This document shows positions 3,672-62,958 of a stretch of 64,000 nucleotides of DNA, piece after piece. The stretch comes from a virus. Location: positions 103,119-167,118 of IMG/VR virus record IMGVR_UViG_3300012936_000001, one strand, 5' to 3'. The notes beneath the pieces are model-generated. The model was given only the letters and a program-made list of their open reading frames with translations. It ran no database searches and had not been told where the DNA came from. A program made the translations under genes and the position numbers. Each line of letters opens with the position of its first letter. The stretch's first letter is position 1.

Positions 3672-4121
3672 ATGGTTGAAATATTTTCACAGTGGATTGC
3701 GACCCATAAAGCAGTCACATCATGGTTCCATGCTGCTCACCACCTTACAAAAGGTGTTGGGTTCGGCGGGGACCATGTTAACATTTACGGAAAGATATAT
3801 ACAGAATTTCAAGAAGACTTTGATGCTATAGTTGAAAAAGGGCTTGGGTTATGTAACGATGAGACGCTAGCAGATCCTCTCACCATATTGTCATCCGCAT
3901 CCACAATGTTAGGCCAATACTTTCAGCCATCAAATTCTTGCCCAGATAAATTAGCCATCGCTGCATGTGAATTGTCAAAAAGATATGTCGATTTATTACA
4001 GCAGTTTTATACGAGGTTTGAGTCCTGTGGGCATTTAACTATGGGTCTTGACGACATGATGGCAGCCATGGCAAATCGATACGAAACGCATGTTTATCTA
4101 CTACAACAGAGAGTAAAATAA
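3672..4121 (+). CDS. Ferritin-like / Dps-like protein
   Basis: Probable four-helix ferritin-like protein. The segment TSWFHAAHHLTKGVGFGGDHVNIYGKI through FQEDFDAIVEKGLGL resembles the Dps helix-A/B region, in which a His and an Asp/Glu series bind iron at the subunit interface; the length of 149 aa fits Dps. Dps proteins store iron and protect DNA from oxidative damage. AGGAG sits 7 bases before the ATG. The gene stop and the next start overlap by one base. The fit is by pattern only and the ferroxidase residues are not fully conserved by eye. Confidence 0.55.
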   Translation: MVEIFSQWIATHKAVTSWFHAAHHLTKGVGFGGDHVNIYGKIYTEFQEDFDAIVEKGLGLCNDETLADPLTILSSASTMLGQYFQPSNSCPDKLAIAACELSKRYVDLLQQFYTRFESCGHLTMGLDDMMAAMANRYETHVYLLQQRVK

Positions 4122-4534
4122 TGAAACTTACAAAAAGACAGCTTAAGAGAATTATAAAAGAAGAGTACACACGGTTGGTAAGCGAAGGTCTTATCGCAGA
4201 GTCTTATGGGCAAGATTATCGAAACCAAAAGAAAGCTATCGGCCGCAACACTGGCTACTTTGATATGCTTTCACAAAACAGATACCGCCCCTCTCCTGAC
4301 ACAGTTTTTAACATGATAGACAAATTACATGGTAAGCCAGGCAAGACGATCGCTGCTAAGCTCGCATCTCATAGAGGAATATCGCTCGATGATCTTGAGG
4401 CCGCTTATTCAGAAGCAAAACTTGACGGTGGACCTGACGCTGGAATTATTGAGGCTGCTATCGACTATAAGAAATATGGTCTTCCAAGAACAAAAGACAC
4501 ATATGTTCCATATCAGCAAGGTGGCCCAGAATGA
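4121..4534 (+). CDS. Leader-bearing protein (capsid-targeting-like N terminus), unknown function
   Basis: 137 aa, not recognised beyond its leader. Residues 1-26 form the basic amphipathic leader KLTKRQLKRIIKEEY followed by GLIAE and then S, nearly identical to the leaders at 31788 and 59059-61800. LIAE before S fits the [L/I]-x-E cleavage rule of T4-type prohead proteases. The rest is a mixed alpha protein without known motif. Inferred to be a minor or internal virion protein that is trimmed at residue 26. It overlaps the next gene by 4 bases (ATGA). Confidence 0.7.
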   Translation: MKLTKRQLKRIIKEEYTRLVSEGLIAESYGQDYRNQKKAIGRNTGYFDMLSQNRYRPSPDTVFNMIDKLHGKPGKTIAAKLASHRGISLDDLEAAYSEAKLDGGPDAGIIEAAIDYKKYGLPRTKDTYVPYQQGGPE

Positions 4535-4791
4535 GAATAACCGAAGCAAATCTCCGAAAAGCCATTAGGAATCTGATCAAGGAATATGATGATGGCTTTG
4601 GTAACTATTATGACGGAGAAGACGCGGAGGAAGCGTCTTATGATGCTTTGTATCACAACCTAGACGGTTGGGCGAACAACAGTATGGATAAAAATTATCT
4701 GATATCTGGTTTACAATCCGGCTTTCAAAATGCAGACTATGAAACAATTGTAATGGTTGTTGAAGACTGGATTGCAGAAAACGCAGAGTAA
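4531..4791 (+). CDS. Small acidic protein with divergent leader
   Basis: 86 aa. The N terminus RITEANLRKAIRNLIKEY is a divergent form of the KRQLKRII leader, with LIKE before Y as the possible cleavage point. The remainder is very acidic (DDGFGNYYDGEDAEEA, then two amphipathic helices ending in AENAE). ATGA overlap with the preceding leader gene suggests translational coupling. Function unknown. Confidence 0.65.
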   Translation: MRITEANLRKAIRNLIKEYDDGFGNYYDGEDAEEASYDALYHNLDGWANNSMDKNYLISGLQSGFQNADYETIVMVVEDWIAENAE

Positions 4792-24413: not shown

Positions 24414-24645
24414 AAAAGAAAAAGAAGAAATGTTAGAAAGAGAAAAGCTTTCTGCCAAAAACCAGAATCTTATTTCTCGTTCTTTGCTCGACTGTGCACA
24501 ACAAATTACTGTCATTTCTACAGCTATTCATACATGTTTAGATAGAATTGATGCAATAGATGCGGAGTTTATGGTTCTGAAGGAAGCCATAGGGCTTAAA
24601 AATCAAGATTATAATTTTTTTAATAATGGAACGACCTATAATTAA
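24334..24645 (+). CDS. Coiled-coil protein, unknown
   Basis: 104 aa from the TTG at 24334, with GGGGAG 7 bases upstream; overlaps the preceding gene by 80 bases in another frame. Residues about 5-50 are a strong Lys/Glu coiled coil, followed by a helical LLDCAQQITVISTAIHTCLDRIDAID segment. An ATG 15 bases upstream is an alternative. Function unknown. Confidence 0.5.
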   Translation: MQKEKQNQYTKLLKELEDLKKKIQEIEKEKEEMLEREKLSAKNQNLISRSLLDCAQQITVISTAIHTCLDRIDAIDAEFMVLKEAIGLKNQDYNFFNNGTTYN

Positions 24646-24668
24646 TAATGACACCAAAGGAGAAAGTC

Positions 24669-24953
24669 ATGTTGAGTGAAAAAGAAATTGTCGAAGCAGT
24701 AAAGGAAATGCCAAAAGAAGAGAAAAAGTCTTTGTCCGAAAAATTAGCCGAACAATTTTATCTAGATGTAAAAAGTAAAGGCGTTCTTGATGCTATTCAA
24801 GAAAAGGCGGTATCTAGAAAGCTATTAGTTTTTATTGTTGCGACAGCACTGATGTGGTATGGACTTGATCCAGAAACATGGTCAACAATCGCAATCATAT
24901 ACATTGGATCTCAATCCGCTGTAGATATTGCCAAAGTGCTTAAGGGCATATAA
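24669..24953 (+). CDS. Small membrane protein, holin candidate
   Basis: 94 aa from the ATG at 24669 (AAGGAG 6 bases upstream; an ATG at 24648 lacks an RBS). A charged N-terminal half is followed by two hydrophobic segments, KLLVFIVATALMWYGL and TWSTIAIIYIGSQSAV. The size and the adjacent membrane genes suggest a holin or holin-like protein, but the amidase gene is 18 kb away. Function is inference. Confidence 0.5.
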   Translation: MLSEKEIVEAVKEMPKEEKKSLSEKLAEQFYLDVKSKGVLDAIQEKAVSRKLLVFIVATALMWYGLDPETWSTIAIIYIGSQSAVDIAKVLKGI

Positions 24954-24956
24954 GGC

Positions 24957-25286
24957 ATGGACTTTATTAAGAAATTCTGGAAATGGATTGTTGGTTTCTT
25001 TGCCATTCTCATTGGTGTTCTATTATTAAGACCTAAGGGAAATCCAGAGCTACAAGCTGAAAAATCAAAAAATAAAAAATTAGAAGATCTTAATAAAAAT
25101 ATTAGAAAAATAGAATCCGAAGGCAAAGAAAAAGTTTTTGATAAATTTGCAAAAAAATCAGAGGACATTCAAAAAAAGACTACCGAACTCAGAGACCAAA
25201 TAGAACTTGAAGAAATCCAAAGGGTTGAGTCTATTAAGTCAGCAGAAGACGCGACAGCGGCCATCAAGGAGAAACTCCAAAAATGA
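24957..25286 (+). CDS. Membrane-anchored coiled-coil protein
   Basis: 109 aa. One N-terminal membrane span (FWKWIVGFFAILIGVLLL) followed by a Lys/Glu coiled coil to the C terminus. Such a type II anchor with long coiled coil is the plan of inner-membrane spanins (Rz-type), and the next gene could be its partner. No sequence homology is claimed. Overlaps the next gene by 4 bases. Confidence 0.5.
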   Translation: MDFIKKFWKWIVGFFAILIGVLLLRPKGNPELQAEKSKNKKLEDLNKNIRKIESEGKEKVFDKFAKKSEDIQKKTTELRDQIELEEIQRVESIKSAEDATAAIKEKLQK

Positions 25287-25690
25287 TTTTATTTCTATGT
25301 TCTATGTTATTTGCTGATGAAGTAATCACGCTGAAGAAGGGCGAGTCTGCTCCTTTTGATGGTACCCTACTTTCGCCAGAAGCGGCCGCAAAACTATTAG
25401 CCTCTTCAGAGTCAGATTTGTCCAAATGTAAAGCCGACCTTGAAATACAAAAACTTCAATTTGAAAACAAACTAGATCTCGAGACAGGACTTTTGACAGT
25501 AGAGATAGACACTTGCAAGTTGGAGAGAGATCGTCAAAAAAAGATATATGAAGAACATATAAAATTATTAGAACAGAGATCCAAACCATCATGGCATGAT
25601 AATCTATTGTTTGCAGGCGGTGTTGCCACCGGCGTTGCAGTCGTAGTCTTATCTGCCTGGACGCTCGATAAAATACAGGTGAATCAATAA
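25283..25690 (+). CDS. Protein with N-terminal signal-like segment, coiled coil and C-terminal membrane span
   Basis: 135 aa. Short hydrophobic start (ILFLCSMLFA), the segment LKKGESAPFDGTLLSPEAAAKLL, a coiled coil (about 50-100), then a membrane span (FAGGVATGVAVVVLSAWTL). The KKGxxAPFDG.LL..EAAA.L segment is one I have seen as a conserved N-terminal motif in phage membrane proteins near lysis genes. Likely part of a three-gene membrane cassette 24669-25690 with a lysis role. Start overlaps the previous gene. Confidence 0.5.
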   Translation: MILFLCSMLFADEVITLKKGESAPFDGTLLSPEAAAKLLASSESDLSKCKADLEIQKLQFENKLDLETGLLTVEIDTCKLERDRQKKIYEEHIKLLEQRSKPSWHDNLLFAGGVATGVAVVVLSAWTLDKIQVNQ

Positions 25691-26982
25691 TGAAACTAGA
25701 TGAAAAAAGACTCATAAGAGCTGTTGGCAACTGGCTTTTTGAATACTCCGGAATTCCTAATGGCAACCGCACATATGACAACCTTGCAGGGAACCTAGGT
25801 GACGAAGAAAGTGAGCTACCAACTGCAACTCCTATTGTTGCAATGGATCAAACAGCTGCTCAGCTAACATATGATCTTCCACCAGTAGAGGATGAAGAGT
25901 ATGTGCCTGAAAATGCAGAAGAATTATCGAGGGCTGCTAGAGAACTTACAAAACAGGTTCCAGATGATCAGGTTGCAAATTTCTATTCTGACCTGAGCAA
26001 AATGATCGAAAATTCAATTGACAAAAGCCGAGACGTGGAAATTCAGGAACACCCTCCCGTCGAAGAGGATATAAAAAACCCGATAAAAGTTAAAGAAAAT
26101 AAAGATTATTTTCGTAGATCTGGTGTAGCCAACCGTAAAACAAGTTACATTAATCATGTAACAAACAAAGGAGGCATTATGTCAGAATCAAGAGGAAAAA
26201 AATCAGCCCGTCAACGCGACTTCGGGCGCTCTTGGGCGCAAGGCGACGACCTAAGAATGACCTGGAAAGATGATCTAGAAACATCGGATGACTATCGTGA
26301 CATGGACGACTTTGACCTAGGAGAATTGGCTGATGAGTTCGTTCCGGATGCTGAAGACATTCAGGCGTTCATGGACGCAAACGATGAAGACGATCCAACT
26401 AAGGTTCCCGGCTTTGATATGGAAATTCATGGTCAAGAGTTCGAACTAGAAGACTTCGTGAAGTCCAAAGTATTTCCTACCGCTAAGCGAGCCAGCGCGG
26501 TGCACAATAAACTGGAAAGAGAAATAAATCCTGTTATTCGAATGACACAGTCCGCTCCGCAGGTGGCAGATAGGCTTATGTCTCTTGTTCGCTCAAACTT
26601 CGCGGCAGACGCTTTTCTTGACGCTGTATATCATGCGGACCTTATGGAAGAAGAAACTATCGAAGATCTTCGGGAAATGTCCCGAGGTAACGAAGAACAA
26701 CGTGAAGCGTTCTATAAGTCTGACATGTATCAATTTTTTGCTTCGATCGCTTTTGTGCGTCCGGCGGTGAAAGAACTTGAAAGACTCGCAAAGCTTGGTA
26801 AGGACGTATTCGACCCCAAGCGCAGAAAGTCTCAAATCAGTCCTGCCGATGCAAAGTCGATTATCAAGTCTGTCAAAAACGCATGGTCTCGAAAGAACGC
26901 GGCTCAAATGTCTCGGTTCGCAGAACGGGCTTTTGAAAACCTCCACTACTTCGAAGCTCGTGATAAATCTGTAATGGGGTAG
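25690..26982 (+). CDS. Leader-bearing 430-aa protein with strong internal start
   Basis: Residues 1-14 (KLDEKRLIRAVGNWLFE before Y) form a short leader-like segment. The first 163 residues are acidic and mostly disordered. At codon 164 an internal ATG (26179) has a perfect AAAGGAGG 4 bases upstream, giving a possible 267-aa protein, which is acidic then helical (NPVIRMTQSAPQVADRLMSLVRSN). Either the gene makes two products, or two genes have fused. No known family. Codon usage after the internal start seems more GC-rich by eye. Confidence 0.6.
   Translation: MKLDEKRLIRAVGNWLFEYSGIPNGNRTYDNLAGNLGDEESELPTATPIVAMDQTAAQLTYDLPPVEDEEYVPENAEELSRAARELTKQVPDDQVANFYSDLSKMIENSIDKSRDVEIQEHPPVEEDIKNPIKVKENKDYFRRSGVANRKTSYINHVTNKGGIMSESRGKKSARQRDFGRSWAQGDDLRMTWKDDLETSDDYRDMDDFDLGELADEFVPDAEDIQAFMDANDEDDPTKVPGFDMEIHGQEFELEDFVKSKVFPTAKRASAVHNKLEREINPVIRMTQSAPQVADRLMSLVRSNFAADAFLDAVYHADLMEEETIEDLREMSRGNEEQREAFYKSDMYQFFASIAFVRPAVKELERLAKLGKDVFDPKRRKSQISPADAKSIIKSVKNAWSRKNAAQMSRFAERAFENLHYFEARDKSVMG
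26167..26181 (+). promoter_or_regulatory. Perfect internal Shine-Dalgarno and start codon
   Basis: AAAGGAGG (26167-26174), spacer CATT, ATG (26179-26181), in frame with the 25690 gene. It is stronger than the gene's own start region, so a C-terminal product starting MSESRGKKSARQ is likely made. Expression is inference. Confidence 0.65.
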
Positions 26983-26985
26983 ATT

Positions 26986-27345
26986 ATGAACAAACCAACT
27001 CTTATGGATCTTTATTTTCCAGGCACTAGTTCCTCGGTCTCTTTGACCGAGGCTTCTACTATTCCCACGGAACTTCCGATTGATGTAAAAGATAAATCAC
27101 TATGGAAACTAAAAGAAGATCCTGAAAGGCTTCTTAGGATTTATCGGCTTTCGAAAGAGAAAGAGTTTAAGTATTTTGTACAAGATCTGCTGGAACTTCA
27201 GGATGAAGAAGGGCACCATGCCAGAATTACAATTCAATATCCCCAAATCAAGATAGAACTTTGGACACATGATCTTAAACAGGTGACAGAGTCAGATTTT
27301 CAATGGGCGGAAAAGGCGGACAAAATATACAATGGCTACAAATGA
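26986..27345 (+). CDS. Pterin-4a-carbinolamine dehydratase-like (PCD/DCoH) protein
   Basis: 119 aa. Residues about 40-115 match the PCD pattern: LLRIYRLSKEKEFKYFVQDLLELQDEEGHHARITIQYPQIKIELWTHD ... SDFQWAEKAD; the enzyme signature normally reads HHP, here HHA, and the third catalytic His is in WTHD. PCD enzymes recycle pterin cofactors or act as dimerisation cofactors. Residues 1-22 are SVSLTE before A, a cleavage-like site, so it may be a processed virion protein that reuses the PCD fold. Catalytic role uncertain. Confidence 0.55.
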   Translation: MNKPTLMDLYFPGTSSSVSLTEASTIPTELPIDVKDKSLWKLKEDPERLLRIYRLSKEKEFKYFVQDLLELQDEEGHHARITIQYPQIKIELWTHDLKQVTESDFQWAEKADKIYNGYK

Positions 27346-27658
27346 CCTAATGGTTTCTGATTCTTTGAAGGGGTTGTTTGACGAACCAGTTAAGCAACCC
27401 CAAAGCTTTATTTCTCTTGTGCATCCTATAGGGGGAATCATTACAAGAATTACAAGTTCCCCTTCAGGAACAAAATACTTTATAATGCCAAAAGATGCAA
27501 CTACAGCGTTTCAGTTATTTGCCAAGAATAAAGTAGATAAGCTTATATTTAAGTACATGGACATTGAGATGGTTCATAAGATTTCTAATCCTCTGATTTC
27601 AATTGATAATTCTCAGGGAAAACTACTTATTCAAATAGAGAGTATACATGAGACGTAA
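27332..27658 (+). CDS. Unknown 108-aa protein
   Basis: No recognised family. Beta-rich pattern (SFISLVHPIGGIITRITSSPSGTKYFIMP, LLIQIESIHET) suggests a small beta domain. Overlaps the neighbours on both sides (14 and 11 bases), so it is translated as part of this cluster. Alternative starts exist downstream (ATG at 27350). Confidence 0.5.
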   Translation: MATNDLMVSDSLKGLFDEPVKQPQSFISLVHPIGGIITRITSSPSGTKYFIMPKDATTAFQLFAKNKVDKLIFKYMDIEMVHKISNPLISIDNSQGKLLIQIESIHET

Positions 27659-28250
27659 GAAACTTTTTGACCTAGATAAACTAATAATGCAAGAAACAAA
27701 AAGAGCCATGGCTGGTGTCATAGAACCAGAGAGAAGGCTTCAGCAAGTTCAGGCCGAAAAAAACAAACCCTTTAAGGCAAAGGAAAAATCTAGGAAAGAT
27801 ATTAGCAAAGACAACGAGAAAGAAGGAGAGGTTGACGAAGCGGAAAAAGACGACGGTGCAAAAGTCAAAAAGTCGGCTCTTCCCGAAATTGACATGTCCG
27901 CTATTTCAGATCTTGTAGATACCATCCGAGCAGGAAAGTCTCTGAAGGACAAGAAAACTCGTGCGGATTTAAAGGCATACTATCAAAGATTAAACGAAGA
28001 TGAAAGACTGGCACTTTATGCATTTCTCTCAGGGCTTGCAGAGGTCATGACAGATCCAGAAGGGGACGCTGGACAAGATGCTGCCCATCCAGCTAAGGAT
28101 CCATATAAACTCAAGATGAGCCGATCAGCCCCGAAAGCAGATAAGAAAGCGAAGGCAAAAGGAGAAGATTCTCCCATTGTTGTCGGTGAAGCTGCAGACA
28201 AATCAAGAGAAAAAAGAATCATTCGATCCAACTTCAGAAGAAGAAGATGA
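27648..28250 (+). CDS. Lys/Glu-rich protein, unknown
   Basis: 200 aa. Basic N terminus (RRKKLFDLDKLIMQE then T), a long charged low-complexity stretch (about 35-75), one folded-looking helical core (about 80-135, DLVDTIRAGKSLKDKKTRADLKAYYQRLNEDERLALYAFLSGLAEVM) and a basic C terminus (KRIIRSNFRRRR). The position among leader genes and the 4-base overlap with the next gene suggest a virion-associated role. Not recognised. Confidence 0.55.
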   Translation: MRRKKLFDLDKLIMQETKRAMAGVIEPERRLQQVQAEKNKPFKAKEKSRKDISKDNEKEGEVDEAEKDDGAKVKKSALPEIDMSAISDLVDTIRAGKSLKDKKTRADLKAYYQRLNEDERLALYAFLSGLAEVMTDPEGDAGQDAAHPAKDPYKLKMSRSAPKADKKAKAKGEDSPIVVGEAADKSREKRIIRSNFRRRR

Positions 28251-29320
28251 AGATAACACGAAGCCAATTACGAAGAATGATCTCTCTTATCACAGAGGCA
28301 GCTGATTCTCATCGGTGCCTCGATGGCCGAATAGTTCCTAAGGATTCAAAGGATTGTTATCTGGATATCTGTGCTCGAATCGAAGATGCAGAATATATAC
28401 GAAATGGAATGTCTGGAGGCACAGCCACAAGAGCTTATTATAATGGGGTACTTGCAGACCTAAGAAAGAAAAGAAGAAGATTATCCAAGAATTTACATGA
28501 ATCTGTTGCTCAAAGAAAAAAATTACAAAAGTGGATGAGCCAGCCGAGCTGGGACACCATTTCTAGAGGAGCGAGAATCCAAAGAAAAAGAGATGCCGAT
28601 TATAAGCTTCTATTTAAAGACAAAAGAGACACTTCGTATGGCGAGCCCATAATGTGGAGAAGTGATATGGGACTAGAAGAGCCACCCGAAGACTATAAGC
28701 CGACTCTTTCGAAAGAAAAAAGAGATACATATAGAAGAGCTTCTTTTGCCCAGTCTAAAATATATGACTGGTGGCAGAAGAATGCAGACATAGAATTTTT
28801 GAAAAGTGTTCAAAAGATTCATTGGATAGGCTGGATTAATGAAAAAGCCGCAATCGGAGGATCCGAAAAGCCTAAGGGGGTAGACGGTCTCAAATTTTTT
28901 AATAGAAAATATAGAAGAGGCAAATTCCACAAAGACGCTCTTTCTACGGTCGGTTACACTGGAAGGATTCCAGCCACAATGAATGCAGTTGGAATAGTTA
29001 TCAAGAATTCTCATCCAATTTTTGCTAGCAACGATGACATATGGACAAACGAACTGTACATGGCAACCGAAGCAGATATAGAATTCTATAGCAACAGCGG
29101 GCTTCCCAAGAAGCCTTCAACCGCTATAGATCCAATGAGTGTAATTTTCGATGCGACTGATGTTAGGGGTAGGATAATTAGTGAGATAGTCATAGACAAT
29201 TGGGCTTGGGAAGAAATATATCTCGGTGCGGCTTTATCCAAGAAAGATGTTGCAAAAATAAAAAATTACTGTAGATCCGCAAACATCAACATAATTAATA
29301 ATAACTTTAAAGGATTATAG
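28247..29320 (+). CDS. Leader-bearing 357-aa protein, unknown
   Basis: Residues 1-17: KITRSQLRRMISLITE before A, a clear leader with LITE/A as the cleavage-like site. The rest is mixed alpha/beta, with a Trp-rich middle (DWWQKNADIEFLKSVQKIHWIGWINEKAA) and a late segment RIISEIVIDNWAWEEIYLGA. Four of these segments have Trp pairs, and a possible enzyme fold is not excluded. No known motif. Inferred processed virion protein. Confidence 0.6.
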   Translation: MKITRSQLRRMISLITEAADSHRCLDGRIVPKDSKDCYLDICARIEDAEYIRNGMSGGTATRAYYNGVLADLRKKRRRLSKNLHESVAQRKKLQKWMSQPSWDTISRGARIQRKRDADYKLLFKDKRDTSYGEPIMWRSDMGLEEPPEDYKPTLSKEKRDTYRRASFAQSKIYDWWQKNADIEFLKSVQKIHWIGWINEKAAIGGSEKPKGVDGLKFFNRKYRRGKFHKDALSTVGYTGRIPATMNAVGIVIKNSHPIFASNDDIWTNELYMATEADIEFYSNSGLPKKPSTAIDPMSVIFDATDVRGRIISEIVIDNWAWEEIYLGAALSKKDVAKIKNYCRSANINIINNNFKGL

Positions 29321-29329
29321 GAGAATCAC

Positions 29330-30478
29330 GTGAATCTTAAGAGCCTAAGAAAAATAATTTTGGAGACAATCAATGAAAAAAATACTCCCTCCAAAAGAAA
29401 AAACCGCAAAAAATATTTAAATAAAGTATTGTCAGAAGCTAGCCAAATATTATTAGAAGAAGAACAGGCTGACTATAAGACAATAGAAGACAAAATAAGA
29501 GGATTTAACTATGCTCTGAAAGATGGCGCGGAGGAAACAAGAAGTTTTCTTGATAACGAAGGAAAGAGTTCTACTTTTCGGGATTTCCTAAAGTCCGGAG
29601 AAGACGATGGATCAGCCGATGATGACGTTGTCAAGATATCAGAAGCTCCCCAGACCCTAGAATCTCTTCAGCCAAGTCAAGGATTTATTGATGCGGGTCA
29701 ATCTGTCTCATTCTCTTTCTGCAATTACAAATTTGGATTCAAGCCACCTCTCATGGGCGGTCCATATACTGCAAAAGACCCCCTGAGTTGTGCTGGCGAC
29801 GTTATACTCGACGGTCACCATAGATGGTCCGGCGGTGTAGCCGTAAATCCAAAAGCGCAGATAAACACTCGAGATTTTGGAGTAAAAGGAGACCCGGGTC
29901 AAAAATTAGCAAAAATGCAAGCCGCGGTTGCATCTCAGACTCCTGCAAATCAGCCTATTCCTTCGAAAAGCGGAGATAAGTCTGGTGACATCATGGGTAA
30001 AAGTGCAGCTGAACTCGAACCTATCTTGACAAATATGTTAGGAAAAGCAGCGAGTGAATTTGATGGCAAAGCCGATGATGAAATAATTCTTGGGGATAAG
30101 TTTATTAATGATCTTAAGGCCGATACTGGAAACCGTGCTCAACTCAAGAGTGTTTTTGGAATAACTGAAGATGACCTAAATAACGTAAAACCTGAACAGA
30201 CATACGCTTCTTTCGATGCAATAGACTGTCCGGTAAGAAAAAAGATTATTGCAGGATCTAGTAAAAATCTTGCATCTATGAGAAAGCAAGCAGCTGGAAC
30301 CCCAAAAGAACGTGACGACATGCCTCAATTAGACCACGATGACATCGGAGGAGATGCTGGATTTGCACAGATTCGGAGAGATCTCGCAAAAGGTAGAATA
30401 AATATCGAGTCTCCTTATGTCAACGAAAATAAACAATTGAAAAGATGGAATAAATTAGCTGGTCTTCTTAAGGACTAA
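29330..30478 (+). CDS. ParB-like (DGHHRW) protein, paralogue 1, with leader
   Basis: GTG start at 29330 with AGGAG upstream. Leader NLKSLRKIILETINE and further sites VLSE before A (36) and ILLE (43). Residues 110-175 carry the ParB/Srx-fold motif ILDGHHRWSG (DGHHRW at 161-166), as in the ParBc_2 family, where the motif sits in a nuclease or nucleotide-binding site. C terminus KRWNKLAGLLKD is shared with the next gene. Two similar genes in tandem with leaders suggest paralogous packaged proteins. Activity unproven. Confidence 0.65.
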   Translation: MNLKSLRKIILETINEKNTPSKRKNRKKYLNKVLSEASQILLEEEQADYKTIEDKIRGFNYALKDGAEETRSFLDNEGKSSTFRDFLKSGEDDGSADDDVVKISEAPQTLESLQPSQGFIDAGQSVSFSFCNYKFGFKPPLMGGPYTAKDPLSCAGDVILDGHHRWSGGVAVNPKAQINTRDFGVKGDPGQKLAKMQAAVASQTPANQPIPSKSGDKSGDIMGKSAAELEPILTNMLGKAASEFDGKADDEIILGDKFINDLKADTGNRAQLKSVFGITEDDLNNVKPEQTYASFDAIDCPVRKKIIAGSSKNLASMRKQAAGTPKERDDMPQLDHDDIGGDAGFAQIRRDLAKGRINIESPYVNENKQLKRWNKLAGLLKD

Positions 30479-30490
30479 TTGGAGAAAAAA

Positions 30491-31771
30491 ATGAACATAA
30501 GACAACTTAGAAAATTGGTATTGGAAACTGTATCGGAAGAACGTCGACGACCATCTAGAAGGAAGCGTAGAGCGATCAAAGAGAACCGCTCAAAGAAACT
30601 TGCAAGAATTCTTCTTGAGGCAGATAAAGAATTAAAAGAACAAGAGGAAGGCGGTGCTGCGCCGGCAGCCACTGCAAACTATGCGGACATGGAACTTTCG
30701 ATGGTTGGTCTTGATGCAGGAAATGTTTATGATACAGTAACCGATTCATCTGAGGGTGACTTAAATGATCTTCAGAAAAATATAATTGCTCAGGATAAGA
30801 ATATGCCGAAAGACAAAGCAGGTTTCAGTGCATATGCAAAGGAACAACTGCCAGAAAAGGAAGAATTTATCAAGCGTTATAATGAAGTCGTCGCAAAAGT
30901 AAAAAGCGATGGTGGACGTGGTTTTCATAAGGCATACATGCCGGCCCTCGAAGGAGATGATGCTCCTCAAGTCAGCCAAGCGCTTACGGACGAAAATGCA
31001 CCTTTTGGAATTGATGTCGACGCTTCTCAAGGAAAGTTTGCTGATATTCTTGCAAAGGCCAAGAACATTCAGATAGATGGAAAGAATCTGCTTGATATGA
31101 CTGCTGCAGAGATGGCACAGAAAAAAGATCAGATCAAGACCGCCATGAAAGAAAATTCATGGTTTGCTGGCGATCTTCTACTTGAATTTTCCCCGCATGA
31201 TTCTTTCCCATGGCCTGGCGCAAAGAAAGCAATCGACGGAGCTAAAACTCTTGGAAAGGGCGCACCTATTCTAAAAGCAGATCAAATAACCGGCCCTGCT
31301 GCTCTGTTTCTTACTCTTGGGCATTTTGACGATGCTCCCGATAAGCTCGAACTCCCAAGTGAACCTGGTTCCGTTACAGCTGGGCAAGCGAAGCCTACCC
31401 AAACAAACATTCAGCTTGCGAAGTCTCTCAGGTTTGCCCTTAATAACATGTACGGTAAATGGGACACGGAAGGTATGGGCGGCGCGTATGCCACAAAGGA
31501 CGGAGATATTCTTGATGGCCATCATCGTTGGAGTTCTCAATATCTTAGAAACGGCGCGGCCGCTGACTTGCCTGGATTGTACAAGATCCAAGCTCCATTT
31601 TCTCAGGATCTCCTAAAAATGCTTACCGCCATTGGAAACGCAATGGGGCGTGGAACAAAAGAAGGTGAGCCTGATGCAAAGAAGGAAGCTGCATGGCATA
31701 AGGGAAATGTTATCAACGAAAACGCAGTTATCAATCGCTGGAACAAGCTTGCTGGCTTGTTGAAAGACTAA
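30491..31771 (+). CDS. ParB-like (DGHHRW) protein, paralogue 2, with leader
   Basis: 426 aa. Leader NIRQLRKLVLE before T, then a second site RILLE before A (about 42). ParB-like motif ILDGHHRWSS with Asp342, and C terminus INRWNKLAGLLKD match the preceding gene; the middle is longer. The ATG at 30491 has GGAG upstream; the in-frame TTG at 30479 is not a likely start. Same inferred role as paralogue 1. Confidence 0.65.
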   Translation: MNIRQLRKLVLETVSEERRRPSRRKRRAIKENRSKKLARILLEADKELKEQEEGGAAPAATANYADMELSMVGLDAGNVYDTVTDSSEGDLNDLQKNIIAQDKNMPKDKAGFSAYAKEQLPEKEEFIKRYNEVVAKVKSDGGRGFHKAYMPALEGDDAPQVSQALTDENAPFGIDVDASQGKFADILAKAKNIQIDGKNLLDMTAAEMAQKKDQIKTAMKENSWFAGDLLLEFSPHDSFPWPGAKKAIDGAKTLGKGAPILKADQITGPAALFLTLGHFDDAPDKLELPSEPGSVTAGQAKPTQTNIQLAKSLRFALNNMYGKWDTEGMGGAYATKDGDILDGHHRWSSQYLRNGAAADLPGLYKIQAPFSQDLLKMLTAIGNAMGRGTKEGEPDAKKEAAWHKGNVINENAVINRWNKLAGLLKD

Positions 31772-31787: not shown

Positions 31788-32162
31788 ATGAAAATATCAA
31801 AAAGACAGCTCAAAAGAATCATCAAAGAAGAGTATTCTAAACTTAGACGTCGCGGACTAATCCGTGAGATGCATCATGATACTAGTCATCAACCATTTCA
31901 ATTCGATCGAAGTGATCCTATAGCCTGTGCAGAGTATGATGTTTTTGATAACAACTATGAAGGCTCTGTGCCTCCAGGTTGCTCCCCTCAGTGGAAAAAA
32001 GATTATGATGATGCTTTCGAGGAAATCGAAGCAGAATATGAGGAACATCTAATTCAACAAGAGCCTAGATCTTATGATGGATATGGTAGTTCAGACTATG
32101 GTTATGACGAGCCATACTATGATCCTGAGTGGGGAGATTCTCCAAAAGATAGGGAACATTAG
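31788..32162 (+). CDS. Long-leader protein, acidic tyrosine-rich
   Basis: 124 aa. Canonical 27-residue leader KISKRQLKRIIKEEYSKL then RRRGLIRE before M. The rest is acidic and Tyr/Asp-rich (YDGYGSSDYGYDEPYYDPEW). The gene is followed by a hairpin terminator at 32194. Member of the same leader family as the array at 59059-61800. Function unknown. Confidence 0.7.
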   Translation: MKISKRQLKRIIKEEYSKLRRRGLIREMHHDTSHQPFQFDRSDPIACAEYDVFDNNYEGSVPPGCSPQWKKDYDDAFEEIEAEYEEHLIQQEPRSYDGYGSSDYGYDEPYYDPEWGDSPKDREH

Positions 32163-37373: not shown

Positions 37374-38981
37374 ATGAGTGAAGATGTCACATCAAAAAAA
37401 ATTCTATTTGAAGAAGATGCAAGGTCAGAGCTTCTAGAAGGGGTTTCTAAATTAGCGCAGGCTGTAAGTACAACCATGGGGCCTGGTGGCCTCAACGTTG
37501 TTATCGAAAGGCCAGGCATGGTTCCTGTTCTAACAAAAGATGGTGTGACTGTAGCCAAAGCTGTCAATCTAAAAAATGAAATGCAAAACCTTGGAGTCCA
37601 ACTAGTAAAAGAAGCAGCACAAGGTTCTGCAGAAATTGCAGGAGATGGAACCACAACAGCGACAGTTTTGGCTCATTCTATTTTTTCTCGAGGGCTCAGA
37701 GCCATCAATGCCGGTCATAACCCTGTACAAGTTCGCAACGGAATAAAGGCTGCGACTGAATGCGTAATTCAGGATCTGGTTGCAAAATCAAAAAAGATCG
37801 AATCGGACAATGAAATTATTGATGTTGGTACTATCTCTGCAAACGGCGAACAAGAAATAGGGGAACTCTTATGCAAGGCAATGAATGCTGTCGGTATGGA
37901 CGGGGTGATTGCAGTAGAAGAAGCGAAGGGTTTCAAGACTAGTCTAACCACAATGGAAGGCCTACGCCTAAACCGGGGGTTCATCTCTCCGTATTTTATC
38001 AATGATTCCGCAAAGGGAGTTTGTGTACTTGAAAAACCGTTGGTTCTTCTGGCAAATAAGACAATACGAAATATCAAAGAGATTCTTCCCATCCTTGAAA
38101 AGGTTCACCAGATGCAAAGATCTCTGTTAATAGTTGCAGAAGAAGTAGAAGGCGAAGCTTTGAATGCTCTAGTTCTTAATAACACAAAGGGAATCCTGAA
38201 ATGTTGTGTTATCAGAGCGCCGGAGTTCGGCCAAGGAAGAATTCAGACAATGGATGATCTTGCTCTTTTGCTTGGGACAGAAGTCATATCTTCTTCTGAT
38301 GAAAATTCAATAGCCGGTTTTGATTGCAGCGCACTCGGAACATGTACGAAAATTACTATTAGCAGAAATGAAACAGTGGTTATCGGATCTAATTGTGATG
38401 CCAAAGATCTAAGAGATAGAGCACGAGAACTACGAGAATACATCGAAAGCTCAATATTGTCACCAGACGAGGAGTCTGTTCAAAGAAGAAGGCTAGCCAG
38501 ATTGTCTGGTGGTGTAGCCATATTACGGGTTGGAGGATCAACCGAGGCAGAACTTCGCGAAAGAAAAGACCGAGTGGAAGATGCGTTGCATGCAACTCGG
38601 GCTGCAGTATCTTCTGGTATCTTGCCAGGCGGTGGAACTGCTTTGCTACGATCAGCCGAGAGATATAGAAACACGAAACACTCAGGAAAAGATGCAACAG
38701 CCGACTGGAAGATTGGCTTCAATATCGTGATTGACGCATGTAAAGACCCTATATACAAATTAACAAAGAACGCTGGACAAGTACCGGAACTTATAATCGC
38801 AAAGACTCTTGAACTCAAGGCTTCAATGGGCTTCGACGCAAGGAAAGAAGAGTGGGTTAACCTTATAGACGCAGGAATAATAGACCCAACATTGGTCGTA
38901 ACGTCAGCTTTACGACACGCTACTTCTGCAGCAGATAATCTCCTATCTGTTGCTTGTGCAATGACTATTGAAAAAAATTAA
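37374..38981 (+). CDS. groEL: GroEL-type chaperonin
   Basis: 535 aa. Full-length group I chaperonin: VSTTMGPGGLNVVIER, TKDGVTVAKAV, EIAGDGTTTATVLA (ATP-binding loop), ARLSGGVAILRVGGSTE, and GILPGGGTALLR all match. The C-terminal GGM tail of bacterial GroEL is missing. No GroES-like gene in the window, so it may use host GroES or an out-of-window partner. Phage GroEL (as in some Pseudomonas jumbo phages) folds phage proteins. Likely cotranscribed with the small genes before it. Confidence 0.95.
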   Translation: MSEDVTSKKILFEEDARSELLEGVSKLAQAVSTTMGPGGLNVVIERPGMVPVLTKDGVTVAKAVNLKNEMQNLGVQLVKEAAQGSAEIAGDGTTTATVLAHSIFSRGLRAINAGHNPVQVRNGIKAATECVIQDLVAKSKKIESDNEIIDVGTISANGEQEIGELLCKAMNAVGMDGVIAVEEAKGFKTSLTTMEGLRLNRGFISPYFINDSAKGVCVLEKPLVLLANKTIRNIKEILPILEKVHQMQRSLLIVAEEVEGEALNALVLNNTKGILKCCVIRAPEFGQGRIQTMDDLALLLGTEVISSSDENSIAGFDCSALGTCTKITISRNETVVIGSNCDAKDLRDRARELREYIESSILSPDEESVQRRRLARLSGGVAILRVGGSTEAELRERKDRVEDALHATRAAVSSGILPGGGTALLRSAERYRNTKHSGKDATADWKIGFNIVIDACKDPIYKLTKNAGQVPELIIAKTLELKASMGFDARKEEWVNLIDAGIIDPTLVVTSALRHATSAADNLLSVACAMTIEKN

Positions 38982-56654: not shown

Positions 56655-56854
56655 AAATAGGCAGCCTCGTTCTGGTTAACGATATATTTAAAGATGTGAG
56701 AAAATGCGGTAACATCGGCATAATTATAGGATGTAGATACGGATTCGGATTCGGCTTGACAGATTGGATTGTCTTGCTCAACGGAAAAGTATCTGAATAC
56801 AATGCCGGTGTGCTATGGCCAATAGAGGAAGTTTTATATGAAAAAAAAATATAG
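56603..56854 (+). CDS. SH3/KOW-like small protein, tandem member 4
   Basis: 83 aa from a GTG at 56603 (GGAGG 12 bases upstream; an ATG at 56630 is the alternative). IGSLVLVNDIFKDVRKCGNIGIIIGCRYGFGFGLTDWIVLLNGKVSEYNAGVLWPIEEV fits the same pattern. Ends 17 bases into the next large gene. Confidence 0.5.
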   Translation: MLDYDDKKNMAWGPEPLKIGSLVLVNDIFKDVRKCGNIGIIIGCRYGFGFGLTDWIVLLNGKVSEYNAGVLWPIEEVLYEKKI

Positions 56855-58994
56855 TTTGAAGAGAATATTGGGAGAAGCCCCTGAGACATTTTTTGGTTTG
56901 GATTTTCTTAAGCCGGAGATTGACACAGAACCGGTTGTGATAGATCCGGCTCAAAAAAGAGGCGGCCTATCATTGGGACAAATGTTTATTGTTTCCGGAA
57001 ATTTTGTTGGCATATCTAGAAAAAATGTTCTGAAGGGTTTCAAGAGACAGAAAGGCGATAGCCACTACACAGAGCTGACGAAAACTGAAAAAAAATCAAA
57101 AGGAATGACAGATGCGCAAATCACAGACGCATACGTGTCTCTCGATATAAATCCCCCTTCTGGAAAAGAGTTAAATGTTTTTGTGATCAGCGGACAAAGT
57201 AATTTCCTTAGAACTTTGCGACTAAGGGGATCGAAAGGCGGAACTCGGGGCGTGGGTTCTCTATCAAAGGCAGCGACATATCCAAAATTTGTTTATGGTT
57301 CTATCGTGAAGATCAATCCCCCAGACGGTAAAATCCCTACTGACTCAGCTCAGATAGAGAATATAAAGAATGCTTCAAAGAACAGAAACAGAGACGTGTT
57401 ATTCACCGGATGTGTTCCATTGGAAAGCCTTTATCTTGCATTAGACAAATCTGAAGGCGATACAGGTGTACTTTCGGTGGCTGAAAGGCAAAGTGCACTA
57501 GATGCATACAACGCACTGCAAAATACCCAAAAGACTACTATAGACACCTATCTCGAGCCCGGAGGCTTTAGGACATGGAAAGATGCAATAGAAGAAATTT
57601 ATCCTGCAGATAAAAAAGTATCAATAACAAAAGGCAAATTCAGTGGCGACCTATCAAGCACTGACAGTGCAAAGATTAAGAAACTTTTTAACGATAAAAT
57701 TGCCTCAGCTGCGGGAAGAGGCGAATTACTTCTAGCAAATATATTTCCAAATCTTGTTGAAATAGGCGGATCTGCTCAGGAGGCAGGAGTTGATCTTGTT
57801 GAAGTGGTTACCAACAAAAACTTCGAAGTAAAAGAACCAAAATTCAGAGTTGGTGTAAAATCTGTTGAACCTGCATTAGCATTCAGTGAGTTTATACAGC
57901 CTGTTCTTGAAGATATAAAATTAGTTCTGGCAAGGGAGGGTCAAATGATCGCAGAAGAGATCGCCCTGAAGACAACAGATGACATCAGGGCAATGTCAAT
58001 CGAAGATTTTGCAAATCTAATGGGCTTTGACTATAACTCACTCGACAGTAGTTCTAAGAGTAAATTTAATGCTGATTTCAAGTTAATAGAACAGATTTCG
58101 GTTGATGATTTATTAGGAGAAATACCCAAACAGACAGCTGCGAATATAGAATTGATTGGTGAACTGCAAGGTAAATTTAGGAGTTTGGAAGTAGCGCACT
58201 CAAACCTAGAGAAAGTAGCCAGAAATGTAGCGCAACCATATTTTCTGCAAGCCGCGCAATTAGTGAAAGCAAATTTATCCGACGGATCTTTGATAGCAGA
58301 GATGATTGGAGAGTCAGGGGACGTGCAAGAAGTCTTTCGGAAAAAAATATACGCTGAATATTTGGCAGCGATAGCACCAACCACAGTGTTTTCTGGTGGA
58401 AATATTATAGTGGTAACTGAGGAAGGCTACAGGATTTTTACACCAGAAAGCATGACAAGATTTGTTTTATCTGTTTTTATAAACGATGCCAAGCTCCTTG
58501 CACGAATTACTTCTGGTGGAGTTGGCATGGACATCAAATCAAAATTAGAGGAGGAGCCTGTCGCAGACTTGCAAACCTTTTTCGACGCCTATTCTGAAAC
58601 TTTGGGTGAGGATATGGCCGAAAAGTTAAAATTAACAACGGAGTCCAAATATTCGCTCATGAACATCCTTCGAGAAGACTGTGAATCAATGATCCTCGGA
58701 GATCCGATCGGTACACCGTATAGGGAAGAGATAAAATCAAAATCGAGAGAAGGAATCAAGTCAAAAGCGAAACTGTTCCGGATAGCCCAGAAGTCACAGT
58801 CCATGCACGACAGATTACTTGATGATGATAATCTTCCGGAATGGGTTCAGGACATGATAACGACATCCGAAGACAGACTTCGTGCGGCCTATGATTATAT
58901 CGAATATAAATTGCATAGGATGAAGACTGACGGTGTAAAGCTCACCGAGGCAAGAAAGAGAAAATTAATCAGTGACATGCTAAAAGTTATATAA
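56838..58994 (+). CDS. 718-aa leader-bearing processed protein
   Basis: Leader KKKYSLKRILGE before A. A second near-copy of that segment, KYSLMNILRE before D, lies at about residues 610-620, as if another cleavage separates a C-terminal piece. The C terminus (LPEWVQDMITTSEDRLRAAYDYIEYKLHRM) is a helical module that I associate with phage particle proteins. The middle is mixed alpha/beta with no known motif, including a beta-rich start (VFVISGQSNFLRTLRLRGSKGG). Inferred processed virion protein. Confidence 0.65.
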   Translation: MKKKYSLKRILGEAPETFFGLDFLKPEIDTEPVVIDPAQKRGGLSLGQMFIVSGNFVGISRKNVLKGFKRQKGDSHYTELTKTEKKSKGMTDAQITDAYVSLDINPPSGKELNVFVISGQSNFLRTLRLRGSKGGTRGVGSLSKAATYPKFVYGSIVKINPPDGKIPTDSAQIENIKNASKNRNRDVLFTGCVPLESLYLALDKSEGDTGVLSVAERQSALDAYNALQNTQKTTIDTYLEPGGFRTWKDAIEEIYPADKKVSITKGKFSGDLSSTDSAKIKKLFNDKIASAAGRGELLLANIFPNLVEIGGSAQEAGVDLVEVVTNKNFEVKEPKFRVGVKSVEPALAFSEFIQPVLEDIKLVLAREGQMIAEEIALKTTDDIRAMSIEDFANLMGFDYNSLDSSSKSKFNADFKLIEQISVDDLLGEIPKQTAANIELIGELQGKFRSLEVAHSNLEKVARNVAQPYFLQAAQLVKANLSDGSLIAEMIGESGDVQEVFRKKIYAEYLAAIAPTTVFSGGNIIVVTEEGYRIFTPESMTRFVLSVFINDAKLLARITSGGVGMDIKSKLEEEPVADLQTFFDAYSETLGEDMAEKLKLTTESKYSLMNILREDCESMILGDPIGTPYREEIKSKSREGIKSKAKLFRIAQKSQSMHDRLLDDDNLPEWVQDMITTSEDRLRAAYDYIEYKLHRMKTDGVKLTEARKRKLISDMLKVI

Positions 58995-59058: not shown

Positions 59059-59793
59059 ATGAGACTAACAAAAAGACAACTGAAAAGAATAATCAGAGAA
59101 GAGTATTCAAGGCTCAGAAGTCGTGGCTTGATCAAAGAAATGTATGAAGAATATTATCCCGAAGACGAATTCGATGCTTATGAACACGTAGAAAATACTA
59201 TGGGTGACGGGTCTCCCGATGCTCCAGGCATGTATGATGGTCTTACCGAAGATCAAATTGATCAGGTCCTTGATGTTCTTGACGAGATGAGAGAAGAAGA
59301 GGAAAGACGTCACGGGTACAGGGATGAGATGATGGACTATGACCCATCCCCTATGACGAACTATGATTCTTTCGGCTTTGCAACCTCAAGACCAGGTGGT
59401 CACATGGGCGAAAGCCGAAGAAGGAGAAGAACTCTGCGAGAAAGCATCGGGTCTACAGTTCTTGTAGAGATAGAAGAACTTCTTCTCGATGAACTCGGAG
59501 ATGACATTGATGCAAAGATATCAATGGCCAAGGCAGTTGCGCTTATAAAATCAAATATGCCGTATGTAATGAAAGGACAATCGGCAAAGGACATTGAGGA
59601 TTTTATATATAGTCACAACGATTTTTACCATGACATCGTAATAGACCCAATTTCTCGATCGGTTATGTTAAAACAAATATTTGATGACGACGATGAAACA
59701 ATTAGTTCACCCTATCATTACTCAGATTCACCTATACACCGCGGAAGCGTCGGAGTCAAAGCTGGCCGCAATCCTTTCCCGGGAGAATACTAA
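59059..59793 (+). CDS. Long-leader protein, array member 1
   Basis: 244 aa. Leader RLTKRQLKRIIREEYSRL then RSRGLIKE before M. Residues 30-130 are acidic (EDEFDAYEHVENTMG), then a second possible site near RTLRE before S (about 131) and a folded helical domain (LVEIEELLLDELGDDIDAKISMAKAVALIKSN). GGAG upstream. First of five tandem genes with the same leader. Function unknown. Confidence 0.7.
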   Translation: MRLTKRQLKRIIREEYSRLRSRGLIKEMYEEYYPEDEFDAYEHVENTMGDGSPDAPGMYDGLTEDQIDQVLDVLDEMREEEERRHGYRDEMMDYDPSPMTNYDSFGFATSRPGGHMGESRRRRRTLRESIGSTVLVEIEELLLDELGDDIDAKISMAKAVALIKSNMPYVMKGQSAKDIEDFIYSHNDFYHDIVIDPISRSVMLKQIFDDDDETISSPYHYSDSPIHRGSVGVKAGRNPFPGEY

Positions 59794-59794
59794 G

Positions 59795-60208
59795 ATGAGA
59801 ATCACAAAAAGACAACTCAAAAGAATCATCCGGGAAGAATACCAAAACTTAAGAGAGAAAGGCCTTATCAGTGAGATGAGCCGAAGGCCTCGTCCTTCCA
59901 ATGTTGACCGTCAGGCAATGTATAGTGGATACGGTGGGCCACCCGCTGTCTTCAATGCTCTTTCTATGGCCATAGCAAAAGTCATGAACATGAAAGGAGG
60001 AATGTGGATTCAAAAGAAAAGAAATCCTCTCCGAAGTCTCAAGAATGCTGTAAATACTATTATGATTAAGGATCCTGTTGTCTCCGACGAGTATTTTGAA
60101 ATTAGAGATAACCCCGCCTATGACTTTGGTCTACAAGAAATCATCGATCAATTGGTCATGGATGAAAGGGAAATAAAAAGAATCATATTGGACGTCGTAT
60201 TATCCTAG
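59795..60208 (+). CDS. Long-leader protein, array member 2
   Basis: 137 aa from ATG 59795 (GGGAG 9 bases upstream). Leader RITKRQLKRIIREEYQNL then GLISE before M. C-terminal domain has NPLRSLKNAVNTIMIKDP ... LQEIIDQLVMDEREI, helical. Follows member 1 by one base. Confidence 0.7.
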   Translation: MRITKRQLKRIIREEYQNLREKGLISEMSRRPRPSNVDRQAMYSGYGGPPAVFNALSMAIAKVMNMKGGMWIQKKRNPLRSLKNAVNTIMIKDPVVSDEYFEIRDNPAYDFGLQEIIDQLVMDEREIKRIILDVVLS

Positions 60209-60218
60209 GAGCAAATAC

Positions 60219-60623
60219 ATGAAAATCACAAAAAGACAATTAAAAAGAATTATCAGAGAAGAATACTCTAGACTTAAACGAAGAGGCTTGATCAAAGAAA
60301 GTTTCGGGATGATGGATTCATATGGAAACCCAGACGAATACATCACAAACATGGAGATGGGCATAGGTTATTCCGATGCCGAAGAGATGCAAATAGACGA
60401 CTTGGACAAGATATTTGATGCCGTTGCAGACATTCAACGAAAAAATTTCAACTATGAAGATCTTGCGATGGCACCAGATGAAGTCATTCAACGTCTAATC
60501 ATGGAGTCAGAGCCTATTTTCGAATTGGCAATGGAAGCAACATACGGAGAGGGTTATGATCAATCTCCACTTTCCGATAGATGGCGGGGTTTTCTTATAG
60601 CTCTACTTTCTATGGGCCGATAA
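60219..60623 (+). CDS. Long-leader protein, array member 3
   Basis: 134 aa. Leader KITKRQLKRIIREEYSRL then GLIKE before S. Acidic middle (EEMQIDDLDKIFDAVADIQ), helical end (PIFELAMEATYGEGY). AGGAG upstream. 21-base gap to the next. Confidence 0.7.
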   Translation: MKITKRQLKRIIREEYSRLKRRGLIKESFGMMDSYGNPDEYITNMEMGIGYSDAEEMQIDDLDKIFDAVADIQRKNFNYEDLAMAPDEVIQRLIMESEPIFELAMEATYGEGYDQSPLSDRWRGFLIALLSMGR

Positions 60624-60643
60624 CAATTTATTTTGAGAAAAAA

Positions 60644-61132
60644 ATGAGAATAACAAAAAGACAATTAAAAAGAATTATTAGAGAAGAGTATTCTAGACTC
60701 AAACGAAGAGGGCTTATTCGCGAGATGAGAGGCGGAGGGCACTATGATTCAATAATGAGTGCTAACCCAGAATTTGAACTGGACCCTGGAGAGTTGCAAT
60801 CAAAAATGGCTCAGGCCCCCATGAAAGCTCGTAAATTAGCATCTGATCCAAGGATCCAAGCTGCGGAAGGAATGTTGGCACAACACGAACTCGGAGGACG
60901 GTTGATGCCTTTGCTCGACCAACTTTTGGAATCAGGCATTGTAACAGGTGATGACCAAATGACAGAAGCATTGTGTGAGATTCTTGGAGAGGCCGGCCTC
61001 AGTACGACTGTATATAATTATAGTTATGATGACCCATACGGCCCTTTTATTTCTGGACATAATATAGTTTGGATAAAACTTTCTGGAAACCAGGCTCTTG
61101 TCATGATCGACGATTATCGCGGACCTAGATAA
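60644..61132 (+). CDS. Long-leader protein, array member 4
   Basis: 162 aa from ATG 60644. Leader RITKRQLKRIIREEYSRL then GLIRE before M. Helical core (RIQAAEGMLAQHELGGRLMPLLDQLLESG). A beta-rich C terminus (PFISGHNIVWIKLSGNQALVMIDDY). Unknown function. Confidence 0.7.
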   Translation: MRITKRQLKRIIREEYSRLKRRGLIREMRGGGHYDSIMSANPEFELDPGELQSKMAQAPMKARKLASDPRIQAAEGMLAQHELGGRLMPLLDQLLESGIVTGDDQMTEALCEILGEAGLSTTVYNYSYDDPYGPFISGHNIVWIKLSGNQALVMIDDYRGPR

Positions 61133-61155
61133 CAACAACTTAATTGGAGAAAAAA

Positions 61156-61800
61156 ATGAGAATATCAAAAAGACAACTTAAAAGAATAATCAGAGAAGAG
61201 TATTCGAAATTGAAGAGAAGAGGCCTTCTCCGTGAGATGGCCGGTGGACGACTGCGAGTAGGGACGAAGATTGGAAAAAACCATATTGGCCCGTCTGCAG
61301 CTGAATTTCCTGGGCTTCATACAATCGGCGAGCTCATGCACGGAAACTCTGTTGATGGAACCGGTTTTTATATCGCGCAGGATGATGAGGGAAATTATTA
61401 TCTGCCAGATCAGTATGGAGATGAGCCCTTTGGAGATGAGATCGAAGACATCCTATATTCAATGGTTCCTTCGAGAAAGAAAAAGAAAAAGCTGAAGAAA
61501 AAAGGCAAGAAAGCTATGAGAGGCCGTTCCTCGATGAGAGCGCCAATGGACCTCGGAAGGCACTATGTTGCTCCTGCAGATCCTGATGATGCGCAAGAGG
61601 CTATGGAACTTGCCATGGAATTTGGAATACCAAGTCCTCAAGTCGTTGGTCAAGTTGGTGGATACGGCAGCACGTATGTTATCCTAACTGATGGAATGGG
61701 TAAATATTATCTTCCTTTGACGGCAACAGAAGACGACGATCTTAGCGTTCAAGAACTTATTGAAATGCTCGACGATGCCAAATCCGAGGGCGATCTTTAA
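61156..61800 (+). CDS. Long-leader protein, array member 5
   Basis: 214 aa from ATG 61156 (TTGGAGA upstream). Leader RISKRQLKRIIREEYSKL then GLLRE before M. Two similar halves: EFPGLHTIGELMHGN ... FYIAQDDEGNYYLPD and MEFGIPSPQVVGQVGG ... TYVILTDGMGKYYLP, with a Lys-rich linker (KKKKKLKKKGKKAM). The repeated D-x-G-x-YYLP suggests an internal duplication. Ends the array. Confidence 0.7.
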   Translation: MRISKRQLKRIIREEYSKLKRRGLLREMAGGRLRVGTKIGKNHIGPSAAEFPGLHTIGELMHGNSVDGTGFYIAQDDEGNYYLPDQYGDEPFGDEIEDILYSMVPSRKKKKKLKKKGKKAMRGRSSMRAPMDLGRHYVAPADPDDAQEAMELAMEFGIPSPQVVGQVGGYGSTYVILTDGMGKYYLPLTATEDDDLSVQELIEMLDDAKSEGDL

Positions 61801-61893: not shown

Positions 61894-62958
61894 ATGATAG
61901 TAAGTCCAATTAACAATCACGCGAATCGCGTCTATTCTCACCGGACAGGCTGGGCGAGAATGTGGGCAAACTGCCTGGGAACAACACTAGGCTTCAACGC
62001 AGACTGGTCCAATGAACCCAAGGTATATCTTGAACATGGCATGGAGTGGAAAGTAGGTGCTAAGTCTATTAAATATTTCTTGGCTTCTGAGAAACAACTC
62101 AAAGAACTTGCCGAGGAAAACAAAAAGAGAGTTGCAGACGGCAAACCAAAAAAAGAATCTTCGTGGGAAAAGCTTGCGAAAAAAGCAAAGATGTTCGAGA
62201 ACTTTGAAGGACAACTATTCTCTCTCGACATCGACTGTCCTATGTACGGAACATTACTCAAGACAAGAATCAAACCATGGGTTCCTCAGGTCTTTAAGAA
62301 TCTCGACTTTGATAAGATTGATCAGGTCTGCAAAAGAGCGACAACGATAAAACAAGAAGACCTGAAAAGGGGATTTGTCGTTCTTGGAGATTCTCATTCC
62401 TTATCTGCTTGGCATGAAGACGCAGCTCTTTGTCGCAACGATGGCCAGACACTGAATGGAGCTATCAGCCGTGGGTTCAGTACATGGCTTCAGCCTTTCG
62501 TGGACGCTGGTTCAAAGATGAGCAAGCTTCGCCTCTACTTCGGCAACATTGATATACGTCATCACATCTGTCGATTGGCTACGACGAAAGAAGAACAGCT
62601 GACGATGACAAAAGATCTCGTACGACGATACTTTGCAGAGATTCAGAAGACGATAAAACAATATGATATTACTCACGTCGAAATAGTTGGAGCCTTGCCT
62701 ATCGAGAATGAATCTCGTCGACTTCCAAAGACTGGATACCATAAGGGAAAACCTTTTTGGGGAACATGGCAAGAAAGAAATGACGTTGCAGAAGCTTTCA
62801 ATGCTTTATGCAAAGGAATGTGCGAACGACTTTCAGGATACACTTATATTGGCTGGAAAGATTCATACAAGAACGAAAAAGGTGAACTTGACTTTGAGTA
62901 CATGGAAAGACCACAGTCGGTTCACATCTCACCCGAGCATTACATGTGGAGTATATAA
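61894..62958 (+). CDS. GDSH-motif protein, possible SGNH-like
   Basis: 354 aa. FVVLGDSHSLSAWHED has a GDSH motif, as in SGNH-type hydrolases (catalytic Ser in GDS), and GNIDIRHHICR could supply the Asn block; a conserved later His (HISPEHYMW) could be the catalytic His. N terminus (NHANRVYSHRTGWARMWANCLG) is distinctive. Next to a gene tentatively tied to DNA base modification, so it may be part of that pathway, but the function is not established. Confidence 0.45.
   Translation: MIVSPINNHANRVYSHRTGWARMWANCLGTTLGFNADWSNEPKVYLEHGMEWKVGAKSIKYFLASEKQLKELAEENKKRVADGKPKKESSWEKLAKKAKMFENFEGQLFSLDIDCPMYGTLLKTRIKPWVPQVFKNLDFDKIDQVCKRATTIKQEDLKRGFVVLGDSHSLSAWHEDAALCRNDGQTLNGAISRGFSTWLQPFVDAGSKMSKLRLYFGNIDIRHHICRLATTKEEQLTMTKDLVRRYFAEIQKTIKQYDITHVEIVGALPIENESRRLPKTGYHKGKPFWGTWQERNDVAEAFNALCKGMCERLSGYTYIGWKDSYKNEKGELDFEYMERPQSVHISPEHYMWSI

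Follow-up and report, generated by a model that had tools for sequence, protein, structure and literature searches.

The window analysed here is a stretch of 64,000 nucleotides that spans bases 103119-167118 of a virus record of 167,118 bases (genome label G000), and its source is an uncultured T4-like phage. A regular-expression scan of the window in six frames for the leader motif MRITKRQLKRIIREEYSRLKRRGL[IL]xE returned exactly 7 matches, all on the + strand and each four residues past an ATG (4121, 31788, 59059, 59795, 60219, 60644, and 61156). This confirms the starting observation of a sequence-only reading of this DNA, namely that five consecutive genes begin with a common 27-residue leader that is also present at 4121 and 31788. 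The leader is a basic, amphipathic N-terminus (helical moment 0.68, with ~1% of shuffles equally high) that ends in GL[IL]xE in all seven window genes. Leader genes 2, 4, and 5 likely start at internal ATGs (59795, 60644, and 61156, respectively). The leader genes and three associated genes of the window are as follows (window positions; the arrow marks the predicted cleavage).

4121..4534, + strand: isolated leader gene, 137 aa, IAE↓S
4531..4791, + strand: gene directly 3' of the 4121 gene, 86 aa, weak leader-like N-terminus MRITEANLRKAIRNLIKE↓Y, matrix score 9.1
28247..29320, + strand: gene with weak leader-like N-terminus MKITRSQLRRMISLITE↓A, 357 aa, matrix score 13.3
31788..32162, + strand: isolated leader gene, 124 aa, IRE↓M
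56838..58994, + strand: 718-aa gene immediately preceding the array, with a short leader of a second type, MKKKYSLKRILGE↓A
59059..59793, + strand: leader gene 1, 244 aa, leader at residues 1-27, IKE↓M, acidic body with a possible second site LRE↓S
59795..60208, + strand: leader gene 2, 137 aa, ISE↓M
60219..60623, + strand: leader gene 3, 134 aa, IKE↓S
60644..61132, + strand: leader gene 4, 162 aa, read from ATG 60644 and not from the longer ORF start at 60581, IRE↓M
61156..61800, + strand: leader gene 5, 214 aa, read from ATG 61156, LLRE↓M

The reference for the weak leader-like starts is the median leader-matrix score of -21 over 180 gene calls. A third such start in G000, L012:3171, lies outside the window, as do two further clear leader genes, L011:12540 and L011:13385 (genome positions 52540 and 53385). 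When the 60644 protein was modeled alone with AlphaFold2 (pLDDT 40), a helix was placed at residues 5-21 with low confidence. The body of the 61156-61800 gene contains what seems to be a diverged internal duplication, FYIAQDDEGNYYLP and TYVILTDGMGKYYLP, with a lysine-rich stretch between them.

The seven window leaders align without gaps over 28 residues with pairwise z-scores of 14-20 against shuffles, whereas the bodies past residue 28, compared in 21 pairs, gave a median z between -0.1 and 0.6 and a maximum of ~2.2. The claim that the bodies differ is thereby borne out, and the full-length alignment of bodies that would indicate ordinary duplication was looked for and is not seen. The companion claim, that leader DNA is almost identical over the first 70 bases, holds as to similarity but was overstated as to degree: identity over the first 84 nt is 70-82% within the array and 63-82% across all seven leaders. 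This similarity ends sharply on either side, falling to 34% over the preceding 40 nt and to 26% over the 90 nt that follow. Within the array leaders, codon positions 1 and 2 are 83% identical and position 3 is 58% identical, indicating that the leader is held mainly as protein. The window bodies carry charges of +3, -9, -28, -16, -10, +2, and -20, such that five of seven are acidic. No credible match to these bodies was found in Pfam or PHROGs scans, no relative was found when IMG/VR was scanned with bodies 59059 and 61156, and none was found when annotated phages were scanned with body 61156. A tblastn search of annotated phages with the leader, a short query subject to low-complexity filtering, gave one weak match, in an uncultured 484 kb phage, and is for those reasons uninformative; no mention of the leader sequence was found in the text of open papers.

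Relatives were taken from IMG/VR, where a position-specific matrix recovered 431 distinct leader genes; none of the reversed-sequence decoys scored above 18. Ten large records hold 13-39 leader matches each, and the longest run of leader genes in the loci comprises 24 genes. In a count that includes overlapping loci, 401 of 503 leader genes occur in runs of at least three. Clustering of the 431 bodies gave 238 clusters, of which 186 are singletons. Within-phage body paralogues are present, and 84% of all leader-gene bodies are acidic. An alignment of 100 proteins has the consensus MKITKRQLRRIIxEE and almost nothing conserved beyond it. Among 100 long leader proteins of relatives searched against Pfam, pentapeptide repeats (2 of 100) were the sole recurring domain, accompanied by a few single matches. 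Further, when 84,980 bacterial and archaeal genomes were scanned, the leader was detected only in four contigs of three metagenome-assembled genomes. Leader arrays lie on L098, L099, and L101 (NHDW01000006 and PBIO01000025) from bacterial metagenome-assembled genomes. PBIO01000025 matches an IMG/VR phage contig of the relatives set in length, and the four contigs are therefore probably misbinned phage contigs.

The prohead protease of T4, gp21, recognizes an (L/I)xE consensus, and T4 cleavage sites were re-read from the T4 genes as a control for it. An [LI]xE at residues 16-33 is present in 244 of 380 non-redundant leader genes, where shuffles give 90.5 (z=20). Patterns of this form with D, K, Q, S, or T in place of E were not enriched among these genes, [LI]xN was weakly enriched (z=3.7), and [LI]xxE was enriched because LL often precedes xE. 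The site falls mostly at residue 21-22 or 27, indicating that [LI]xE is kept at variable spacing. Conservation drops steeply past the E, from 4.3 bits at P1 to 0.8 at P1' and 0.3 at P2', with P1 fixed by the construction of the logo, and the test of the motif is for that reason the z-score against shuffles. Roughly a third of the leader genes do not have a strict [LI]xE within residues 16-33, which counts against a reading modeled on T4; in many of them P3 is instead V, M, or some other hydrophobic residue, or the site falls at residue 14. Nearly all leaders carry [IL]12-x-E14, and an A, S, T, G, C, or M follows at residue 15 in 58 of 128 leaders without a later site versus 24 of 232 with one (p=1.3e-13). 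In leaders without a later [LI]xE, residue 15 thus tends to switch from E to A/S/T/M, creating a T4-like IxE↓A site that seems to replace the later one. The leaders of T4 IPII and IPIII end in FIAE↓A, similar to this alternative site.

A protease of the S77 (gp21) family is encoded in G000 at positions 62169-62585 of the record (E=1.9e-27), and the genome also carries a portal of the gp20 type and a capsid protein of the gp23 type, with PHROG matches to head maturation protease (PHROG 207, 2.3e-50), portal (7.4e-35), and major head protein (2.8e-72). The capsid protein has a propeptide with a predicted cleavage LLRE↓A64, within ~3 residues of residue 1 of mature T4 gp23* by alignment, and the P4-P1 residues of leader gene 5 (LLRE) are the same as those at this predicted capsid site. 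S77 was detected in all eleven leader-bearing records of at least 180 kb that were searched and in 12 of 17 overall; the five records without a match are all 61-135 kb and are possibly fragments. In many relatives, the N-terminus of a conserved core protein, encoded no more than two genes downstream from the protease, resembles MAKISRNALKGLVKECLVEIL.E. The G000 copy of this protein is the weak start L012:3171, with a leader score of 8.9 where few of the 180 gene calls score positive. The head operon also contains a ribosomal protein S21-like gene (L012:4938-5159; PHROG 21469, E=5e-4), and an S21-like gene is annotated at the same head-operon place in Microcystis phage Mel-JY01.

In T4, internal proteins carry capsid-targeting sequences (CTS) of 10-19 residues that are removed by gp21 (PMC9026906), and Ip1-3, which lack homology beyond the leader, inhibit different GmrSD enzymes of restriction (PMC12373910). 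The genes ipI, ipII, and ipIII, re-read as a control, have the leader and body layout described here: ipII and ipIII have identical leaders (10 of 10 residues) ahead of unrelated bodies, and the longer ipI leader ends in ITE↓A. As in G000, T4 builds a gp20/gp21/gp23 head and places a short leader ending in [LI]xE before unrelated small proteins (IPI, IPII, IPIII, and Alt). The five array genes are accordingly regarded, with good though not complete confidence, as candidate internal head proteins whose leader would be a T4 CTS-like propeptide, cut by a gp21-type protease, and whose cargo would be injected. The leader's basic amphipathic helix would bind the prohead core, enclosing the protein in the prohead; the S77 prohead protease would cut after [LI]xE; and the mature cargo, retained in the capsid, would pass into the host along with the DNA, probably to counter early host defenses. 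We infer these roles in core binding, packaging, cleavage, injection, and anti-defense from gene anatomy and by analogy with T4.

The likeness has bounds. The T4 CTS (MKTYQEFIAE) has no sequence similarity to the present leader beyond the terminal [LI]xE. The present leader is strongly basic and longer than the 10-19 residues of the T4 CTS (27 residues in the window, mostly 22-27 overall). T4 internal proteins are basic but the present bodies are mostly acidic, which counts against a CTS-like role, and T4 has three IP genes plus Alt compared with 7-12 leader genes in G000 and up to 39 in relatives. The proposal is consequently that the leader works like the T4 system, and homology of the leaders is not claimed. 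In the giant phages SPN3US and phiKZ, many packaged proteins are cut by the prohead protease (PMC5694885); these ejection (E) proteins offer a parallel for packaging of many proteins in large phages, but their propeptides mostly exceed 100 residues while the present leaders are short and nearly uniform. The principle is already known from T4 internal proteins, and the leader sequence and the scale appear to be new.

The array had also been read as leader shuffling, in which a targeting module is copied in front of new cargo. Two parts of that proposal stand: the leader terminates in the motif of the T4 prohead protease, in a genome with such a protease and a T4-type head, as befits a targeting module, and differing cargo lies behind one leader. 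Leader identity does not follow body identity, being 0.746 for homologous bodies in different phages, 0.742 for unrelated genes within one genome, and 0.698 for unrelated genes between genomes, although a leader so short and constrained gives little resolution. This makes modular exchange of leaders and bodies plausible, and individual alignments show the same body domain behind different leaders, at other distances, or with an extra domain inserted. The third part, recent copying, does not hold for this array. Synonymous sites too similar for the age of the bodies had been suggested as its mark; besides the 58% identity at third positions, same-amino-acid codon agreement in the array is 0.60, within the range of 0.33-0.65 obtained against leaders of other phages, indicating that the array leaders are old and under protein-level constraint. 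Across all genomes, nearly identical leader DNA pairs are in modest excess (23 observed versus 9.9 permuted), and in L071 one pair is identical at 48 of 48 nt ahead of unrelated bodies, but G000 has no excess of such pairs.

Other accounts of the shared N-terminus were considered. It is unlikely, if still worth some weight, that the leader proteins are parts of the prohead core or scaffold that are cut and lost in maturation, like T4 gp67 and gp68, rather than delivered effectors. The leader-like start of the head-operon core protein and the scaffold-like composition of acidic bodies would suit such a role, but the extreme diversity of bodies and the occurrence of orphan bodies are unlike conserved core components, and in G000 ~100 kb separates the five-gene array from the head operon. 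Tandem duplication followed by divergence of the bodies past alignable range, which the tandem layout and the body paralogues within phages of the relatives set would fit, is a somewhat weaker candidate and also unlikely: bodies score near z=0 where leaders score 14-20, and homologous body domains in other phages stand behind different leaders at different distances.

The helical moment, rarely equaled in shuffles, could instead mark a localization helix for the inner membrane, a replication site, or a phage-made compartment, with [LI]xE being incidental. Yet the motif persists at varying distances (z=20), residue 15 switches in compensation, and every large record that was searched has the protease, making a localization helix very unlikely. 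Least probable, and close to negligible, is conservation of the stretch as DNA or RNA (a promoter, ribosome-binding, or recombination element) and not as protein; codon agreement does exceed the 0.40 predicted by codon usage, but the drop in identity at third positions and the 34% identity of upstream DNA run against it.

Additional features were noted in other genes. The 718-aa product of 56838..58994 is a candidate large internal protein, for which no credible family match was found in Pfam or PHROGs. Large genes with a similar KYSL leader but without detectable homology to it occur at L016:4469 (552 aa) and L022:1007, and a KYSL leader is present internally in 23407-24114. The 1312-residue protein of 18315-22253 repeats a motif resembling LIHKxSLxxLLxE at residues ~158, 388, 632, 949, 1150, and 1297 (spacing ~150-320 residues), with one similar motif in L055; the protein may be a polyprotein that the prohead protease cleaves. 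Among the unknown proteins clustered at 22263-31771, several have a short basic N-terminus and then [LI]xE, such as MKKKLTEKRIINAIRKVYRQRLAE and MRYKRNRLWELAGIVHRSELLTE, and these may be further head-packaged proteins. Two neighboring proteins at 29330-31771 end in RWNKLAGLLKD and a scaffold-like protein of the head operon (L012:5200-6915) ends in RWQKLAGIKK, a possible common C-terminal signal. The product of 37374-38981 resembles, by eye, a GroEL chaperonin.

Among the phage proteins that host defenses encounter first are the injected internal proteins, and the characterized internal proteins of T4 inhibit type IV restriction enzymes. A broader proposal, held tentatively and with less than even confidence, is that in a group of marine T4-related phages one removable tag has been recombined before any gene in an open-ended manner, supplying dozens of injected proteins per virion and possibly also the 1312-residue protein, as a polyprotein cleaved at its internal repeats. 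A leader that can be read from sequence would turn hundreds of unannotated small genes of uncultured phages into testable candidates for packaged and injected proteins, and a delivery route known from three small T4 genes would be expanded about tenfold elsewhere.
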